Below, piece by piece: positions 1,492 through 28,557 of a stretch of 38,622 nt of DNA. The notes beneath the pieces were generated by a model. That model worked only from the letters and a program-made list of their open reading frames with translations. It was not told the origin of the DNA and did no database searches. The DNA lies in assembly GCA_012521015.1 (NCBI GenBank), contig JAAYNE010000079.1, positions 1 to 38,622 on the forward strand, given 5' to 3'. The position numbers and the translations under genes are program-made. The DNA comes from Clostridiaceae bacterium (GTDB taxonomy: Bacteria; Bacillota; Clostridia; Saccharofermentanales; DTU023). The stretch's first letter is position 1, and the number at the start of each line of letters is the position of its first letter.

Positions 1492-2874
1492 ATGAAATTA
1501 TGGCAAGGTATGCTCTCGGGTGAGCTAAATCAAAAAGCAGAAGAATTTAATGCATCTTTTGCAATTGATCAAAGAATGATCTGTCAAGACATTGATGGAT
1601 CTATTGCCCATGCCACAATGCTGGGAAAAACCGGTATTTTGTTACAAAACGATGTTGAACAAATTATTACAGGTCTGCAAGAGATTAAGGGCGATTTAAA
1701 AAATAATTTATTAAAACTGGACCCGCAAGCTGAAGATGTCCACACTTTTATTGAGAATGAATTGACTAAACGTATTGGTGAAGCAGGTAAAAAACTTCAT
1801 ACCGCCCGTTCAAGAAATGATCAGGTCGCAACAGATCTCAGACTTAATTTGCGTTCTGAGATTGCTCAAATCACTGAACTTTTGCAAGATTACATTATGG
1901 CAATGTGCAGTTTAGCAGAACAAAATCTGACAACTATTATGCCGGGATATACACACTTACAGGCAGCTCAACCGATTACATTAGCTCATCATCTGTCCGC
2001 ATATTGCATGATGGCTTTGCGTGATTTAGAGAGACTTGCCGACTGCAGAAAAAGACTTAATCAATCACCTTTAGGCGCATGTGCTCTAGCCGGTACAAGT
2101 TATCCGATTGATCGTCAATTGACTGCTGAATTGTTAAATTTTGAATCCGTAATGCAAAACAGTATGGACGCGGTAAGCGATCGGGATTTTATTCTCGAAT
2201 TAAACGGTGTTTTGGCTATTATCGCGATCCACCTTTCCCGCCAGGCGGAAGAACTGATTATCTGGAGTTCACAACCTTACAGCTTCATTAGAATAGCCGA
2301 TGAATTCTCAACCGGTTCTTCGATCATGCCGCAGAAAAAAAATCCGGATATGGCTGAGTTAATCCGGGGTAAATCCGGCAGAGTTTTAGGTAATTTAATT
2401 CAAAGCTTAACTATGATCAAAGGCTTACCGCTTGCTTATGCCAAAGATATGCAAGAAGATAAAGAATCAATTTTTGATTCTGTTGACACTGTGAAAATTT
2501 GTCTGGAAATAATGGCAAATATACTCTTATCCTTAACAATTAATCAGGATCAAATGCTGCACGCAACTGAATTAGGTTATTTGGCTGCTACTGATTTAGC
2601 AGATTATTTAGTCAAAAAAGGCATTCCGTTCAGAGATGCACATCATATGATTGCACAGTTGGTCGGAATAGCCGATAAGGAAGGAAAAACTCTCGCCGAG
2701 CTTCCGTTAGAAGTTTATCGTGAGATATCACGTTCATTTGAGGAGGATATTTTCGAGGTAATCGATATGAAAAATATCGTTAACGCTAAAAATTCTTTCG
2801 GTGGACCGGCTCCGGCAGAAGTCGAGCGTCAAATCGCTTGGATTAAACAAAAACTACAAGCTTTTTCAATATAA
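1492..2874 (+). CDS. argH: Argininosuccinate lyase
   Basis: A 460-residue member of the fumarase/aspartase superfamily. It splits argininosuccinate into arginine and fumarate, the last step of arginine synthesis. The superfamily signature GSSIMPQKKNPD is at about residues 280-292. HTARSRNDQVATDLRL near residue 101 and TIMPGYTHLQAAQP near 155, with the catalytic His, are also present. The ATG lies 4 bases after the argG stop, so argG and argH are co-transcribed. No terminator is evident before the transporter gene 80 bases downstream, so arginine synthesis and amino-acid uptake may share transcripts. Length and motifs are normal. Confidence 0.97.
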   Translation: MKLWQGMLSGELNQKAEEFNASFAIDQRMICQDIDGSIAHATMLGKTGILLQNDVEQIITGLQEIKGDLKNNLLKLDPQAEDVHTFIENELTKRIGEAGKKLHTARSRNDQVATDLRLNLRSEIAQITELLQDYIMAMCSLAEQNLTTIMPGYTHLQAAQPITLAHHLSAYCMMALRDLERLADCRKRLNQSPLGACALAGTSYPIDRQLTAELLNFESVMQNSMDAVSDRDFILELNGVLAIIAIHLSRQAEELIIWSSQPYSFIRIADEFSTGSSIMPQKKNPDMAELIRGKSGRVLGNLIQSLTMIKGLPLAYAKDMQEDKESIFDSVDTVKICLEIMANILLSLTINQDQMLHATELGYLAATDLADYLVKKGIPFRDAHHMIAQLVGIADKEGKTLAELPLEVYREISRSFEEDIFEVIDMKNIVNAKNSFGGPAPAEVERQIAWIKQKLQAFSI

Positions 2875-21271: not shown

Positions 21272-22714
21272 TCACGCTGATTCTTGATCATAAACTGCAC
21301 GAATGATTATTCTGGTAATTTTTGAATTCTCAGCTTGAACTATCATTTCCATTTTTGTACCTTGTTGATTACCCGGAATAATAAAATTTGATTCAGGAGA
21401 AAACGGATAATTTTTATAAAAATTATTTAAATCCATATTGTAATACAATGAATCCGTTTCACCCTTGGCTGATCCTAAACTTAATTTATCGGATTTTTCA
21501 TTCAATTCTAATTGTTCGACAATTCCCGACCATGTATTACTTTCTAGATCACCAAATCCCTTGATAATTAAAGTTAATTGATCATATTGAACTTGCCAAA
21601 AAACTGCACCGGTTTGTAGAGGATCTTCCATTTCAATTTTTTCAATTTTCGGTTCCCCAAGAAGGGTATTTAGTTTATCACTATAATACATTTCTCTGAC
21701 GCCATTGCTTGACCAAGACAATAAAAAATCATCTTCATAGTATAGATTCAAATGCTGGTTTTTAATCTTATCCGGATAAGGATCAGATACGGAAATTAGG
21801 TTATTAGTTTGCTTAAATGTACAGGTACGAATGTTATTTTGGTTTTTCGTTATAGTAGTTAACTCTTGATGATATTCAATAGAATTTGGCATCAATAGAT
21901 AAACTACACTATTGAGCGGTTCAGTTTCAATACTCAAACGATAATAATTGATCAAAAGTTGTGCTTTGTTGTTCTCTATTTCAGAAATTTCATCTTCAAC
22001 TTGTTCCGGATATGCTTGCAATAACAACCATGCCAACATATCTTTGTCCCGATCATTCAGAGCTTTAAAATAGAATCGGGAAAATTCATATATTTGATTA
22101 ATTTCTTTAATCCAGTTTGCAGATAAATAGGGTTTGCCCTCCGCATCATGTTGAATTCCTATGATCGTTGAAACAACTTCCGTCTCCTGATCAATTTTAT
22201 CATTAACTTCCTGATCATCTTTAAAAAAAATCAATTCATAATATTCCGTACTCTCCGCTTCAAGAGCCAAACCGGACAAGGTTGTACTGATGCTAATTGT
22301 AATCTGGCGTTTTAATTCATCAGGCACACGACGAAATTCGATGATTTCCTTTTTCTCCGGATGAGACATCGCTTCAATATAAAGTGAGAAATCATTGAGC
22401 GAAAGATCTATTTTACTCGACTCAGGTATTGCTGTATAGACTTCTTGGACACTGGCACTGTTATTAATCGAATCAATCATTGCTGACAAGAGTGAAATAT
22501 CTGTAATTTCGCCATCGGCATTGGTATTTATTTTATAAGGAAGCTTTACTTTATTCTCAGTTCTATTATTTGTGCGAACAGAATTCGATCCTAAACTCAA
22601 ACAGCCGGATAGTATTGAAAGCAAAATCAACACACTAGAAAAAATAGCTGAAACTCTTAATATGTTTCGCTTATTCCGTCCGCTTTTTTGTTTTTTTATT
22701 ATTCGCAGTTTCAT
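21272..22714 (-). CDS. Uncharacterised lipoprotein coupled to sigH
   Basis: A 480-residue predicted lipoprotein that I do not recognise. Residues 1-20 are basic (KLRIIKKQKSGRNKRN), 22-37 hydrophobic (LRVSAIFSSVLILLSIL), followed by the lipobox LSGC with Cys at about 38, so it is likely anchored on the outer face of the membrane. The rest is acidic and polar, with mixed helix and strand and no further membrane segment. Its ATG overlaps the sigH stop (ATGA), so it is translated from the sigH mRNA. This placement fits a sensor, an envelope or a developmental role tied to SigH, but nothing in the sequence shows that directly. It ends 53 bases from the HAD gene in convergent orientation. Confidence 0.75.
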   Translation of the reverse strand: MKLRIIKKQKSGRNKRNILRVSAIFSSVLILLSILSGCLSLGSNSVRTNNRTENKVKLPYKINTNADGEITDISLLSAMIDSINNSASVQEVYTAIPESSKIDLSLNDFSLYIEAMSHPEKKEIIEFRRVPDELKRQITISISTTLSGLALEAESTEYYELIFFKDDQEVNDKIDQETEVVSTIIGIQHDAEGKPYLSANWIKEINQIYEFSRFYFKALNDRDKDMLAWLLLQAYPEQVEDEISEIENNKAQLLINYYRLSIETEPLNSVVYLLMPNSIEYHQELTTITKNQNNIRTCTFKQTNNLISVSDPYPDKIKNQHLNLYYEDDFLLSWSSNGVREMYYSDKLNTLLGEPKIEKIEMEDPLQTGAVFWQVQYDQLTLIIKGFGDLESNTWSGIVEQLELNEKSDKLSLGSAKGETDSLYYNMDLNNFYKNYPFSPESNFIIPGNQQGTKMEMIVQAENSKITRIIIRAVYDQESA

Positions 22715-23340
22715 AAATCTTGTTTGTCTTGATATTCGCTCAATTTTTTACGAACTCTCTGGAGGGCTCCGTCCACACTTTTAGTTGAAACATTTAATTT
22801 ATCGGCAATTTCCCGATATGTTTTGCCTTGCAAATATAAACTTGCAACCTGATCTTCGTATTTACTTAAATAATTCTGTAAAAAGTTCTCCAAGTCAATT
22901 TTTAGTTCTTTGTCTAATAACAAACTTTCCGGCGTTAGGGCTGACTCGTCAGATAAAACCTCAAAAAAAGATATCGGTTCATCTTCTGAGCTATTACTAT
23001 AAGAATAATCCAAAGACAGGCTTTCATTCAACGGCTGATGTTTTTTTCTGGTAGCAGTCCTGATTGCATCATATAATCTTGAATCTACAACAGCTGAAGC
23101 ATAGTTTTTGAATGGTACATTTTGCGTCGCATCAAAGCTGGAAATTGCTTGATACAAACCGATCATACCTTCTTGAATTAAATCCTCCTGATCGCCACCT
23201 TGTAAAAATAAACGTCTTGTTTTGCCGGCAACCATATTTTTATATTTTTTCAATAAAACTTCCATTGCTTGCTCATTATTATTTCTTATTAAAGTGATTA
23301 ATTCTTGATCTGTCAATTCATCATATACTATATCTGGCAT
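22711..23340 (-). CDS. sigH: RNA polymerase sigma factor, SigH (Spo0H) type
   Basis: A 209-residue sigma-70 family factor. Region 2 is at about residues 15-90: AMEVLLKKYKNMVAGKTRRL, DQEDLIQEGMIGLYQAISSFD and FKNYASAVVDSRLYDAIRTATRKKH. Region 4 is at about 150-205: YEDQVASLYLQGKTYREIADKLNVSTKSVDGALQRVRKKL. It resembles Bacillus SigH closely in layout. SigH controls the move to stationary phase, competence and sporulation; comF lies nearby in the window. The cysS-mrnC-rlmB-sigH order matches Firmicutes, except that the gene usually between rlmB and sigH (yacP/rae1) is absent. A sigma-A-type promoter lies upstream; the ribosome site is weak. Confidence 0.88.
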   Translation of the reverse strand: MPDIVYDELTDQELITLIRNNNEQAMEVLLKKYKNMVAGKTRRLFLQGGDQEDLIQEGMIGLYQAISSFDATQNVPFKNYASAVVDSRLYDAIRTATRKKHQPLNESLSLDYSYSNSSEDEPISFFEVLSDESALTPESLLLDKELKIDLENFLQNYLSKYEDQVASLYLQGKTYREIADKLNVSTKSVDGALQRVRKKLSEYQDKQDL

Positions 23341-23472: not shown

Positions 23473-24267
23473 TTAAGACTTGCGTTGTTCTACAGCTTGA
23501 AAAACGATAATTCCTGCGGCAACGGCTGCATTCAATGAATTAATCTGACCATGCATTGGAATAGTAACTAAAAAGTCACAACGTTTTTTGATGTTCTCAC
23601 TCATACCTTTTGCTTCATTGCCAATTATTAAAGCAATGGAGCCTTTGTAATCAACCTTTTGGTAATTTTCTGCACGATCTACTTCCGTGCCATAAATCCA
23701 AAAATTCTGTTCTTTAATCCTGTCAATGAAAGTTGCCAAATTAGTCACTCTGGCAATCGGTACAAATTCAATTGCACCAGCGGAAGCTTTTGCCACATGA
23801 GCATCAGCAGTAACTGAACGCCGTTCCGGAATCACAACCAAATCGATTCCAGCAGCTTCTGAAATTCGCAAAATCGAGCCGAAATTATACCCATCTTGTA
23901 AATTATCCAAAATCAAGATAAAAGGTTGTTTCCCTTTTGCTTTAAGTTCTTCAAGCAATACAAAAGGATCTACATAATTTTTCGGAGATACTTGAGCAAT
24001 GATACCTTGATGTCTTGGAGTTTCTGCCATCTCCTCGAAAACATTTTTTTCTACTTCAATGATGATTGCACCTTGTTCTTTACATTCAAGAACTAACTCA
24101 TGCAATCTTTGCTCACGACGTTGATTAGTTTTTACAACCCAAACTTTATTAATCGAACGTCCTGCACGTAGTGCTTCATTAATCGGATTACGACCTTCAA
24201 TTCGGTCAAGATATTTTTCAGCATTATTTTCAACTTTATCGTTTGTAAGTTGATTATCTTTAGTCAA
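23473..24267 (-). CDS. rlmB: 23S rRNA (guanosine-2'-O-)-methyltransferase RlmB-type
   Basis: A 264-residue SPOUT methyltransferase. The N-terminal substrate-binding domain (about 20-95) begins RIEGRNPINEALRAGRSI. The knotted SAM-binding domain shows FILILDNLQDGYNFGSILR, VTADAHVAKASAGAIEFVPIARV, IALIIGNEAKGMSE and IPMHGQINSLNAAVAAGI, all characteristic of TrmH/RlmB enzymes. It is predicted to methylate a 23S rRNA guanosine in the cytoplasm. The TTG at 24267 is preferred because GGAG lies 6 bases before it; a TTG at 24279 would contain the site. It follows mrnC after 20 bases. RlmB versus a paralogue rests on the mrnC-rlmB-sigH context. Confidence 0.9.
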   Translation of the reverse strand: MTKDNQLTNDKVENNAEKYLDRIEGRNPINEALRAGRSINKVWVVKTNQRREQRLHELVLECKEQGAIIIEVEKNVFEEMAETPRHQGIIAQVSPKNYVDPFVLLEELKAKGKQPFILILDNLQDGYNFGSILRISEAAGIDLVVIPERRSVTADAHVAKASAGAIEFVPIARVTNLATFIDRIKEQNFWIYGTEVDRAENYQKVDYKGSIALIIGNEAKGMSENIKKRCDFLVTIPMHGQINSLNAAVAAGIIVFQAVEQRKS

Positions 24268-24287
24268 AATAAACTCCAAAGTATTAT

Positions 24288-24671
24288 CTACAATGTATCA
24301 AATTCTAAATCCGGATTAGCTTTGCTTAACAGATCAAGTAATCTTTCGGTATCACCTTCAAGATAAATATAACCGATCAAAGTTTCAAATGCAGTTGCTT
24401 GACGATAGTCCGCCGGATCAACATTACGAGCGGACGGCACAGATAGGTTGCCGGCTCTTTTGACTACTTGAACCTCAGATTCGGACAAGTACGGTAACAC
24501 TAATTGTAAAGCTTCAGCTTGAGCCTCCGCATTGACCAGTTTAATTACTTCACTATGTAAAGGACCGGCTTTTGCCGAATACAATTTTAATAATGACAAA
24601 CGAATTTGCAGTTCATAAACCGCATCTCCGATATATGCCAAGGTTGAAATCGGCAAATCCAAGGTTTTCAC
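24288..24671 (-). CDS. mrnC: Mini-ribonuclease III
   Basis: A 127-residue RNase III catalytic domain without the double-stranded RNA-binding domain, matching Mini-III. LAYIGDAVYELQIRLSLL at about residues 11-28 contains the acidic metal-binding residues, and FETLIGYIYLEGDTERLLDLL near residue 93 is the second half of the active site. Mini-III matures 23S rRNA ends. The start is GTG, overlapping the cysS stop as TAGTG, so it is coupled to cysS. rlmB follows, placing two 23S rRNA maturation genes together. Identification is firm. Confidence 0.93.
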   Translation of the reverse strand: MKTLDLPISTLAYIGDAVYELQIRLSLLKLYSAKAGPLHSEVIKLVNAEAQAEALQLVLPYLSESEVQVVKRAGNLSVPSARNVDPADYRQATAFETLIGYIYLEGDTERLLDLLSKANPDLEFDTL

Positions 24672-26092
24672 TATTCATTCTCAACTTCCCGACTGATTTT
24701 AGGTCCTTGAGGAGTATCCTCAATTTTGTAACCTAAATAATTCAACTCATCTCTTATTTTGTCTGCTGTAACGAAATCACGTTTCGCTTTGGCTTGATCT
24801 CTCAATTTTACCTGTTCAAGAATCTCAGCCGGAATCTCTTCTTCCGCTTTCTTTTCTGCATCTAAGCCCAAGACAGCACATAATTCAACAATACAATCAC
24901 GGGCTTTTTGTAGGGAATCGGCACTTAATTCATAATCTGTAGATACGATATTGACATGACGCACTAAATTAAAAATTGCAGCAAATGCATCAGGTGTATT
25001 CAAATCATCGTCCATCGCGCGTTTGAATTCTTCAACCGTACCGGCAATATAATCCAACAGTTCTGTAGATTTAATTTGATCAAATTCAGAATCTGCATTT
25101 GCAATTAGAAATTCTATATTCTCCACACTGCGTAAAATTCTCCGCCAACCATGAGTAGCTGCCATTAAAGATTCCTCTTCAAAATTCAACGGCATCCGAT
25201 AGTGGGCTTGTAAGATGAAAAATCGCAAAACATCATAGCCATACTCACCGGATAGTTCTCGTACTAAGAAAAAATTACCACCGGATTTTGCCATTTTTAC
25301 ATTATCAACATTGATAAATCCATTATGCATCCAATAATTCACAAAAGGCTTGCCATTAGCAGCTTCGCTCTGGGCAATTTCATTTTCATGATGTGGGAAC
25401 ATCAAGTCCATCCCACCGGCATGAATATCGATCGTATCTCCTAAATATTTTTTGCTCATTGCCGAACACTCAATATGCCAGCCCGGTCTACCTTCGCCCC
25501 AAGGTGATTCCCAGGCAGGTTCGCCTGCTTTTTTTAATTTCCAAAGCACAAAATCACTTAAATTGCGTTTATCGTTGAGCAATTCAACTCGTTCTGAAGC
25601 CCCGGCTTCCTGATCATTAAGATCACGTCTTGAGAGTTTTCCATAATCGGCAAATTTGGATGTATCAAAATAAACTCCATCGTTTAAAACATAGGTATAA
25701 CCTTTTTCTTCCAAAGTAGAAATCATTTCAATAATTTCCGGAATCGTTTCAGTTGCTCTCGGATGGTAATCAGCCCGCATTATATTGAGATTGTCTGCAT
25801 CATGGTAATACTCTTTAATCATTTCATCTGCCAATTGCTTAACGGTAAGATTGCGTGATTGAGCTCGATTAATCATTTTATCATCAATGTCGGTGAAGTT
25901 TTGCACATAGGTTACTTTAACATTTTTATAGAGTAAATAACGACGTAATGTATCATAAACAACAAAAGGCCTGGCATTACCTAAATGGAATAAATCATAA
26001 ACCGTCGGACCGCAAACATAAATTGTAATATGATTTTTTTGTTGAGGAATAAGTTCTTCTTTTCGTCTTGTTAAATCATTATATATGTGCAT
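24671..26092 (-). CDS. cysS: Cysteinyl-tRNA synthetase
   Basis: A 473-residue class I synthetase that charges tRNA-Cys. The HIGH-type motif is in YVCGPTVYDLFHLGNARPF, whose Cys begins the zinc site; WHIECSAMS supplies another zinc Cys and the PHHENEIAQSEA block follows. The KMSKS-type loop reads KMAKSGGN, with Ala in place of Ser. A helical C-terminal region follows. The ATG at 26092 has TTGGAGG 6 bases before it; an upstream in-frame ATG at 26158 falls inside the ncRNA. No T-box leader is visible, although cysS is T-box controlled in some Firmicutes. Its stop overlaps mrnC. Confidence 0.96.
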   Translation of the reverse strand: MHIYNDLTRRKEELIPQQKNHITIYVCGPTVYDLFHLGNARPFVVYDTLRRYLLYKNVKVTYVQNFTDIDDKMINRAQSRNLTVKQLADEMIKEYYHDADNLNIMRADYHPRATETIPEIIEMISTLEEKGYTYVLNDGVYFDTSKFADYGKLSRRDLNDQEAGASERVELLNDKRNLSDFVLWKLKKAGEPAWESPWGEGRPGWHIECSAMSKKYLGDTIDIHAGGMDLMFPHHENEIAQSEAANGKPFVNYWMHNGFINVDNVKMAKSGGNFFLVRELSGEYGYDVLRFFILQAHYRMPLNFEEESLMAATHGWRRILRSVENIEFLIANADSEFDQIKSTELLDYIAGTVEEFKRAMDDDLNTPDAFAAIFNLVRHVNIVSTDYELSADSLQKARDCIVELCAVLGLDAEKKAEEEIPAEILEQVKLRDQAKAKRDFVTADKIRDELNYLGYKIEDTPQGPKISREVENE

Positions 26093-26111
26093 TAAATGCC
26101 TCCAAGTAAAA

Positions 26112-26286
26112 TTAATAAAACCCTTAAAAATGCACTTCTTTTGAAACCTAGCCATCAAGACCAGGTGGGTGTCCTGCGGCGGTCTTTGACTTTACCGGAG
26201 GGCATAAGTCGTATTCCACATCGACTCCGGACTCCCCTAAAAACGTTGCAGGTTCAAATATGAAGCGACTTACATTCCAAGGGTAC
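26112..26286 (-). ncRNA. raiA: Structured non-coding RNA downstream of comF, probable raiA-motif RNA
   Basis: About 175 bases, GC-richer than the surroundings. They have their own promoter on the minus strand and no plausible protein. Paired segments: ACCCTT (26284-26279) with AAGGGT (26125-26120); AATG with CATT; TTTGAACC with GGTTTCAAA; CCTGC with GCAGG; and a hairpin CCGGAG/CTCCGG enclosing TCG/CGA. The closing stem is followed by TTTTATTAATTTT, a plausible 3' end. raiA-motif RNAs in Firmicutes are often next to comFC and raiA genes, and this one directly follows comF; I assign it by location and size, not by a remembered consensus. 6S RNA is the main alternative. It lies upstream of cysS but lacks T-box sequence. 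Confidence 0.6.
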
Positions 26287-26290
26287 TTAT

Positions 26291-26319
26291 AATATACAAA
26301 ATAATACCTAACAGTTCAA
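26291..26319 (-). promoter_or_regulatory. Promoter for the comF-linked ncRNA
   Basis: On the minus strand TTGAAC (26319-26314), a 17-base spacer and TATATT (26296-26291) make a strong sigma-A promoter. The expected start falls at 26284-26287, exactly at the base of the RNA's closing stem. This precision supports a discrete RNA gene rather than a leader read from comF. Confidence 0.7.
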
Positions 26320-26383: not shown

Positions 26384-27133
26384 CTAATCGATGACTTGAT
26401 GTTCGGTTGCCACAACCATAGCTCTTACTTTCAAACCTTGAATTAACAGAGGTTTCGCTGCTTCTAAAAGCGTAATACCGGTCGTTGTCACATCGTCAAA
26501 CAATATTACGGTTACGTTTTCTTGCTTGATTTTACGTATAAGATAATCCGAATCAGGATTAATTATAAATGCATCTTTTAAATTCGTTTGCCTAGCCGTC
26601 ATATTTCGCATTTCAGTTTGCCTTGCTGTTTCACGTTGACGAATCAAAAAATCAGGCAAAAATGTTATTTCCGAAAATCCGGCTATCAATTCAGCTATTT
26701 TAGCAGCTTGATTGAATCCTCTTTGCCTTAATCTTTTTTTACCTAAAGGAATCGGCACGACAACTGCTTGTTTTTTGTGATAAAACCAATATTTCTGCCA
26801 CACCAAGAACATTATCGCAGCAAACCAATTTGCCAAATAAAGATTATGATAAAATTTATAATTTAAAAGCAGTCGATTGATTGGTTCTTGATAAGCAAAT
26901 AAAGCTTTAATTTCTAGATCCGATTGTTCAAAACACCAAGTATTTTCCGGAAATAACAAGGGTAATTTGCTCAGACAATCTTTACATGTATGACGCATGA
27001 GAAATGATAAATGCGGATTAGTATTGCGATTTTTCAGTACACCTAAACGTAATAATTCACTCTGCCGAAAAAAGTTACTACCGGCAGAAAGATTACAGAT
27101 AAGACAATTTTCCGCCCGCAAAAAATTCAACAT
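26384..27133 (-). CDS. comF: ComF-family phosphoribosyltransferase-like protein
   Basis: A 249-residue ComFC protein. The N-terminal zinc-finger-like cysteines are in ENCLICN (about residue 8) and CKDCLSKL (about 50). The C-terminal phosphoribosyltransferase fold has VPIPLGKKRLRQRGFNQAAKIAELI and the PRPP-loop VILFDDVTTTGITLLEAA near residue 215. ComFC takes part in DNA uptake during natural transformation, on the cytoplasmic face. No comFA is present. The ATG lies 3 bases after the metK stop, with no separate ribosome site, so translation is probably coupled to metK. A structured RNA with its own promoter follows downstream. Confidence 0.88.
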   Translation of the reverse strand: MLNFLRAENCLICNLSAGSNFFRQSELLRLGVLKNRNTNPHLSFLMRHTCKDCLSKLPLLFPENTWCFEQSDLEIKALFAYQEPINRLLLNYKFYHNLYLANWFAAIMFLVWQKYWFYHKKQAVVVPIPLGKKRLRQRGFNQAAKIAELIAGFSEITFLPDFLIRQRETARQTEMRNMTARQTNLKDAFIINPDSDYLIRKIKQENVTVILFDDVTTTGITLLEAAKPLLIQGLKVRAMVVATEHQVID

Positions 27134-28440: not shown

Positions 28441-28443
28441 GAA

Positions 28444-28532
28444 CTCATCTCTCAGGTATTACCTGCCGGAATTGGCACCGTCTTACGGTTGCCGGGTTTC
28501 ATAGGGCCGTTCCCTCCGCCACTCTAGATAAG
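28444..28532 (-). promoter_or_regulatory. SAM-I riboswitch (S-box) aptamer
   Basis: On the minus strand the aptamer has the S-box features. P1 is CTTATC pairing with GATGAG at the two ends. After P1 comes AGAGTGGCGGAGGGA with the P2 kink-turn region, then GGCCCTATGAAACCCGGCAA, ACCGTAAGACGGT (P3 loop), GTGCCAATTCCGGCAGG, and the P4 hairpin AGGTAATACCT with GAGAGATGAG closing P1. It precedes a terminator and metK. Binding SAM should end transcription of metK and comF. Confidence 0.95.
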
Positions 28533-28557
28533 ATTAATTTATATTAACTTGTTTTTT

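Follow-up and report, generated by a model that had tools for sequence, protein, structure and literature searches.

A divergent 6S RNA gene predicted upstream of cysS in an uncultured clostridial lineage

On the minus strand of the 38,622-nt clostridial DNA analyzed here (the window), a short segment separates a comF-like gene (26384–27133; TIGR00201, 85 bits, below cut-off) from cysS (24671–26092), and the question raised by this locus is which RNA, if any, the segment encodes. The elements follow one another as a sigma-A type promoter, TTGAAC-17-TATATT (26319–26291), the RNA segment itself (26286–26117; 5′ end AGUACCCUUGGAAUG, 3′ end GCAUUUUUAAGGGUUUU), the cysS ribosome-binding site GGAGG (26099–26103), and the cysS start codon, ATG 26092. 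The original prediction described a discrete, promoted and structured RNA of about 175 nt at this position, favored a raiA-motif RNA as its identity, named 6S RNA as the test that would redirect the assignment, and fell back on a new RNA if neither applied. The promoted, structured RNA between comF and cysS was borne out, at approximately 170 nt, and the 6S test did redirect the assignment; the raiA reading was not upheld. 6S RNA (SsrS), which is well known in bacteria, mimics an open promoter and thereby blocks RNA polymerase. On sequence comparison, the segment is a divergent yet otherwise standard 6S RNA (SsrS, RF00013), an ordinary gene and no new class. We place at roughly 95% the probability that it is the ssrS gene of an uncultured clostridial lineage, with its own sigma-A type promoter, and the first element of a cysS-mrnC-rlmB(-sigH) unit.

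Taken by itself, the window sequence makes a weak case. A promoter scan of the segment gave one match compared with 2.8 expected in shuffled sequences, fewer than by chance, and the fold energy had a z score of −2.0, with 9 of 200 shuffles equally good. The promoter and fold signals gain significance through comparison with relatives. Across 38 loci, the best promoter upstream of the 6S gene had a mean score of 9.0 compared with 6.1 for shuffled flanks, and 29 of these orthologous loci had the −10 element exactly 7 nt ahead of an invariant CC in the closing stem. The window keeps this spacing, with a closing stem that starts approximately 7 nt past the −10 hexamer, where the original prediction had placed it relative to the expected start site.

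At the gathering threshold, Rfam gave no match at the segment, and the sole match in the window was a SAM riboswitch before metK (RF00162, 80 bits, 28442–28534, minus strand). Downstream of the riboswitch, a hairpin and a run of T (AAAAAAGCTTCTCCGGGTGAGAGGCTTTTTT) resemble its terminator. Matches to SSRC38 and rliB in the region were at chance level, and no tRNA or tmRNA was detected in the window. With permissive settings, the segment aligned to RF00013 over the full length of the model (positions 1–187; 27 bits, E = 8e-4 in 341 nt), and a search of the whole genome returned this locus as the sole 6S match (E = 0.0012). The score lies below the 46.4-bit gathering score of RF00013, so annotation misses the 6S gene in this genome. 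6S RNAs measure approximately 160–200 nt and usually come from one gene with its own promoter, in agreement with the ~170-nt RNA, single genomic match, and conserved promoter found here.

A 6S match was present in 52 of 59 related genomes and exceeded the 46.4-bit cut-off in 35 of them, with scores of up to 68 bits; the genus of the window occupies the bottom of the range (25–45 bits). The homologues are mostly from uncultured genomes. In a DNA search made without any RNA model, the window RNA was 93–94% identical in three congeners and about 72–81% identical in most of the other family relatives matched, for example 80% over positions 48–156 in one genome (G036). Because relatives score above the cut-off and DNA similarity leads to the same places, the low score of the window copy is best explained by divergence inside a known family. 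A model built from the 29 aligned sequences (R1) gave a single site in the genome of the window, with 154 bits, a score that is not independent because the window is in the alignment, and it also matched named clostridial genomes of another collection (L073 at 120 bits, L062, and L064). In the same collection, the Rfam 6S model scored above cut-off in L067, L079, and L080. The 27-bit score would also suit a new RNA class that merely resembles 6S, but the orthologues at this one locus form a graded series (25–68 bits) and have their helices and pRNA template in common, the above-threshold 6S genes of relatives occupy the same place, and RF00013 covers the segment end to end; we consider a separate class scarcely credible.

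The favored reading had been a raiA-motif RNA (ModT) beside comF that had lost its hpf neighbor. comFC genes flank 74% of raiA-motif RNAs (PMC11706538), and the comF-like gene directly upstream of the segment is a neighbor shared with this class in Bacillota. However, the raiA model (RF03072) found no match in the region at E values of up to 10 and none in the whole genome at E values of up to 1, whether sequence or structure is considered, whereas the 6S family matches from end to end. Downstream, where raiA/hpf would be expected, lies cysS, as originally noted, and the sole gene in the genome for an S30AE protein (the Pfam family of hpf/raiA) lies on a different contig (C67). As far as the Rfam model can tell, a raiA identity is refuted, and we assign it next to no probability. 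The linkage of comF without hpf, proposed to be informative, is a coincidence of context, and a false lead concerning raiA without hpf is removed.

The predicted 6S fold was assessed in an alignment of 29 distinct sequences, including the window (A2). All coordinates are on the minus strand. The closing helix (helix 1) pairs 26275–26284 with 26120–26129, with 98.6% of cells paired and two-sided changes in 5 of 10 pairs; helix P2 (helix 2) pairs 26254–26260 with 26138–26144 (97.5% paired); the hairpin in the 3′ half of the central bubble (3′-CB hairpin, helix 8) spans 26146–26166 (99.0% paired); and the apical, or upstream, helical arm spans 26167–26236 (helices 3–7). Over the entire fold, standard pairs were formed in 97.8% of cells and two-sided changes were seen in 21 of 44 pairs compared with 12.1 in shuffles. 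When the 3′ partners were slid by one to three columns, pairing was 36–52% and two-sided changes occurred in 5–10 pairs; this control is somewhat generous because it was mainly the RNAalifold consensus of A2 that supplied the pairs, and the two-sided counts are less affected. The strong covariation bears out the prediction of a discrete structured RNA, and the closing stem, central bubble, and long apical arm that characterize 6S RNAs are all present. The closing stem, P2 adjoining the central bubble, and the 3′-CB hairpin are shared with 6S-1 of B. subtilis (bsrA, RF00013), whose 3′ bubble contains a hairpin and whose helix P2 is disrupted when the pRNA is made (PMC8876501).

A predicted template for a 14-nt pRNA, 5′-GCAGGUUCAAAUAU (which reads as the plus strand), is located at 26248–26261 (minus strand). 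The template sits on the 5′ side of the bubble in all 46 rows compared (45 loci, with the window present twice), and the copy fits the pattern G-N-N-G-G-(U/C/G)-(U/C)-C-A-A throughout, with GG at positions 4/5 and UC(C)AA at 7–10. The residue before the pRNA start is A in the window; one genus has G there at a few loci. In lactic acid bacteria, the hallmarks of 6S pRNAs are GG at 4/5 or 5/6, AA at 9/10, and an adenine beside the start site (PMC8414754); the window template carries all of these. The B. subtilis 6S-1 pRNA is 5′-GUUCGGUCAAAACUA (PMC12005410); like the predicted window pRNA, it starts with G and has UCAAA at 7–11, and it differs in having GG at 5/6 rather than 4/5. The window RNA also differs from 6S-1 in its length of approximately 170 nt and its location before cysS.

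The genes downstream of the 6S gene, all on the minus strand, are cysS, mrnC (24288–24671; Mini-III RNase domain, PF00636), rlmB (23473–24279; TIGR00186 above cut-off), and a sigH-like sigma factor gene (22711–23340; best matched by SigH models, which scored 185 bits and so did not reach their cut-offs). 6S and cysS shared a contig and strand in each of the 54 genomes in which the two could be placed, and in the above-cut-off relatives (35 of 59) nearly all 6S matches were directly upstream of cysS. The distance between the two was 30–224 nt in one sister family (f4) and mostly 750–940 nt in another (f3); two of the distances in families f1 and f4 were measured on partial DNA matches and are therefore maximum values. 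An ORF resembling serine acetyltransferase (cysE), a label read from the ORF sequence and not from a family search, occupies the gap in L062 and in the four f3 loci that were inspected. The order metK-comF-6S-(cysE)-cysS-mrnC-rlmB-sigH recurs in the sister families, with not every gene in every genome; comF and sigH, each of which lacked a tblastn match in part of the genomes, are less constant than cysS, mrnC, and rlmB. The cysE-cysS-mrnC-rlmB-sigH order resembles the B. subtilis operon. In a class-wide sample outside this order, 6S was upstream of cysS on the same strand and within 3 kb in at least two genomes among the matches listed; these two (G167 and G233) belong to one family, with a distance of 1.8–1.9 kb, a rough impression from rows read by eye. 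We found no report of a 6S gene adjoining cysS or cysE in the open-access literature searched, which is not proof that none exists. In lactic acid bacteria, the 6S gene neighborhood is also conserved at the family level, as here, but the neighbors are rarA and uspA (PMC8414754). The order-level link of the cysS operon with 6S is new, if modest, and is the only uncommon trait of this 6S RNA.

cysS is often leader-controlled in bacteria, and the segment might instead be a cis-acting leader of cysS, an attenuator or T-box-like element, rather than a free RNA. The RNA ends approximately 14 nt before the cysS ribosome-binding site, the gap is short throughout the family, and a distant relative (L067) does carry an Rfam T-box in the interval from cysE to cysS. 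Against this, the conserved parts are those of 6S RNA, and sister families carry the same RNA before cysE or 750–940 nt from cysS, so the fold is not tied to cysS; in the window, no match to the T-box model (RF00230) or to another riboswitch was found before cysS. We judge a dedicated cysS leader to be highly improbable, and a secondary cis effect of the 6S RNA on read-through is possible. In L067 the T-box lies at 1895–2117 (plus strand), just upstream of cysS and after cysE, and a 6S gene is found upstream of cysE there too.

Taking the segment as a 6S RNA, its 3′ end bears on how cysS is transcribed. The closing stem is followed by a U-rich tract (mean of 5.9 U in 8 nt, 38 loci), an arrangement like that of an intrinsic terminator, but with the entire 6S body as the loop; that the stem and U tract terminate transcription is our guess. 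No conventional terminator was found between 6S and cysS. The gap to cysS is 13–91 nt in 33 of 35 genomes of the window's family, too short to accommodate a terminator of its own; some of the transcription of cysS therefore probably passes through the 6S gene, as it does for ygfA in E. coli. An alternative listed cysS start (TTG at 26158) overlaps the 6S gene and is not used. Judged from the short gap, co-transcription from a shared promoter with read-through is likely; alternatively, cysS could be read from comF or from an undetected promoter inside the 6S gene. In two more distant members (L067 and L059), inspection by eye shows a hairpin and then T residues after the 6S gene, pointing to the close junction of 6S and cysS as a derived state. 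In E. coli, 6S RNA is the promoter-proximal part of a bicistronic ssrS-ygfA unit with a downstream metabolic gene (PMC2848244). The window arrangement is likened to this unit, with 6S heading a protein-coding gene, but the downstream gene is cysS (or cysE-cysS) rather than ygfA, and co-transcription, demonstrated in E. coli, is inferred here.

Comparison of relatives establishes the predicted fold and pRNA template together with the conserved promoter and locus; from family membership, we infer that the RNA sequesters sigma-A polymerase and releases it through pRNA synthesis. Transcription would begin at a sigma-A type promoter belonging to the 6S gene, with 6S as the first part of the cysS-mrnC-rlmB(-sigH) unit, and the mature ~170-nt RNA would fold into the closing stem, P2, an open central bubble with its 3′ hairpin, and the long apical arm. 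If it behaves like the 6S RNAs that have been studied, it would bind the sigma-A holoenzyme as a mock open promoter and hold it as growth slows. On the return of nutrients, polymerase would copy a pRNA starting 5′-GCAGGUUCAAA from the bubble, and this copying would open P2 and release the enzyme. The closing stem and U-rich tract probably form a leaky terminator or a processing boundary, at which part of the transcripts would end as 6S RNA while others would continue into cysS. A further and rather doubtful proposal is that 6S is a built-in first element of the (cysE-)cysS-mrnC-rlmB-sigH operon in this clostridial order, which would place a brake on sigma-A polymerase, the supply of Cys-tRNA, and a stationary-phase alternative sigma factor on one promoter, with the closing stem as a leaky terminator that sets their ratio.

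The conserved position of 6S as the leading element of the cysS operon would be a second example, besides ssrS-ygfA, of a 6S RNA fused to a downstream protein gene. The comparison also shows that, in one genus, 6S RNA can diverge so far that its score drops under the Rfam cut-off, while at this locus other members of the family score above it, and an annotation pipeline would report the 6S RNA as missing in such a genome. In three genomes of one genus in the same order (G037, G040, and G053; family f2), cysS was present and 6S gave no match at E values of up to 1; the 6S gene there may be lost or still more divergent. A search for plasmid-borne copies of the RNA gave no match. An apparent second copy in one genome (G002) was a 127-nt assembly overlap between two contigs and not a duplication. 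Another genome (G026) has two 6S matches near contig starts (C244:58–235 and C283:53–229), which could be two copies or an assembly or strain effect. Directly after sigH in the window, a gene at 21272–22714 (minus strand) encodes a 480-residue protein without a Pfam or NCBIfam match; many relatives have a weakly similar counterpart in this position (20–43% outside the closest congeners).
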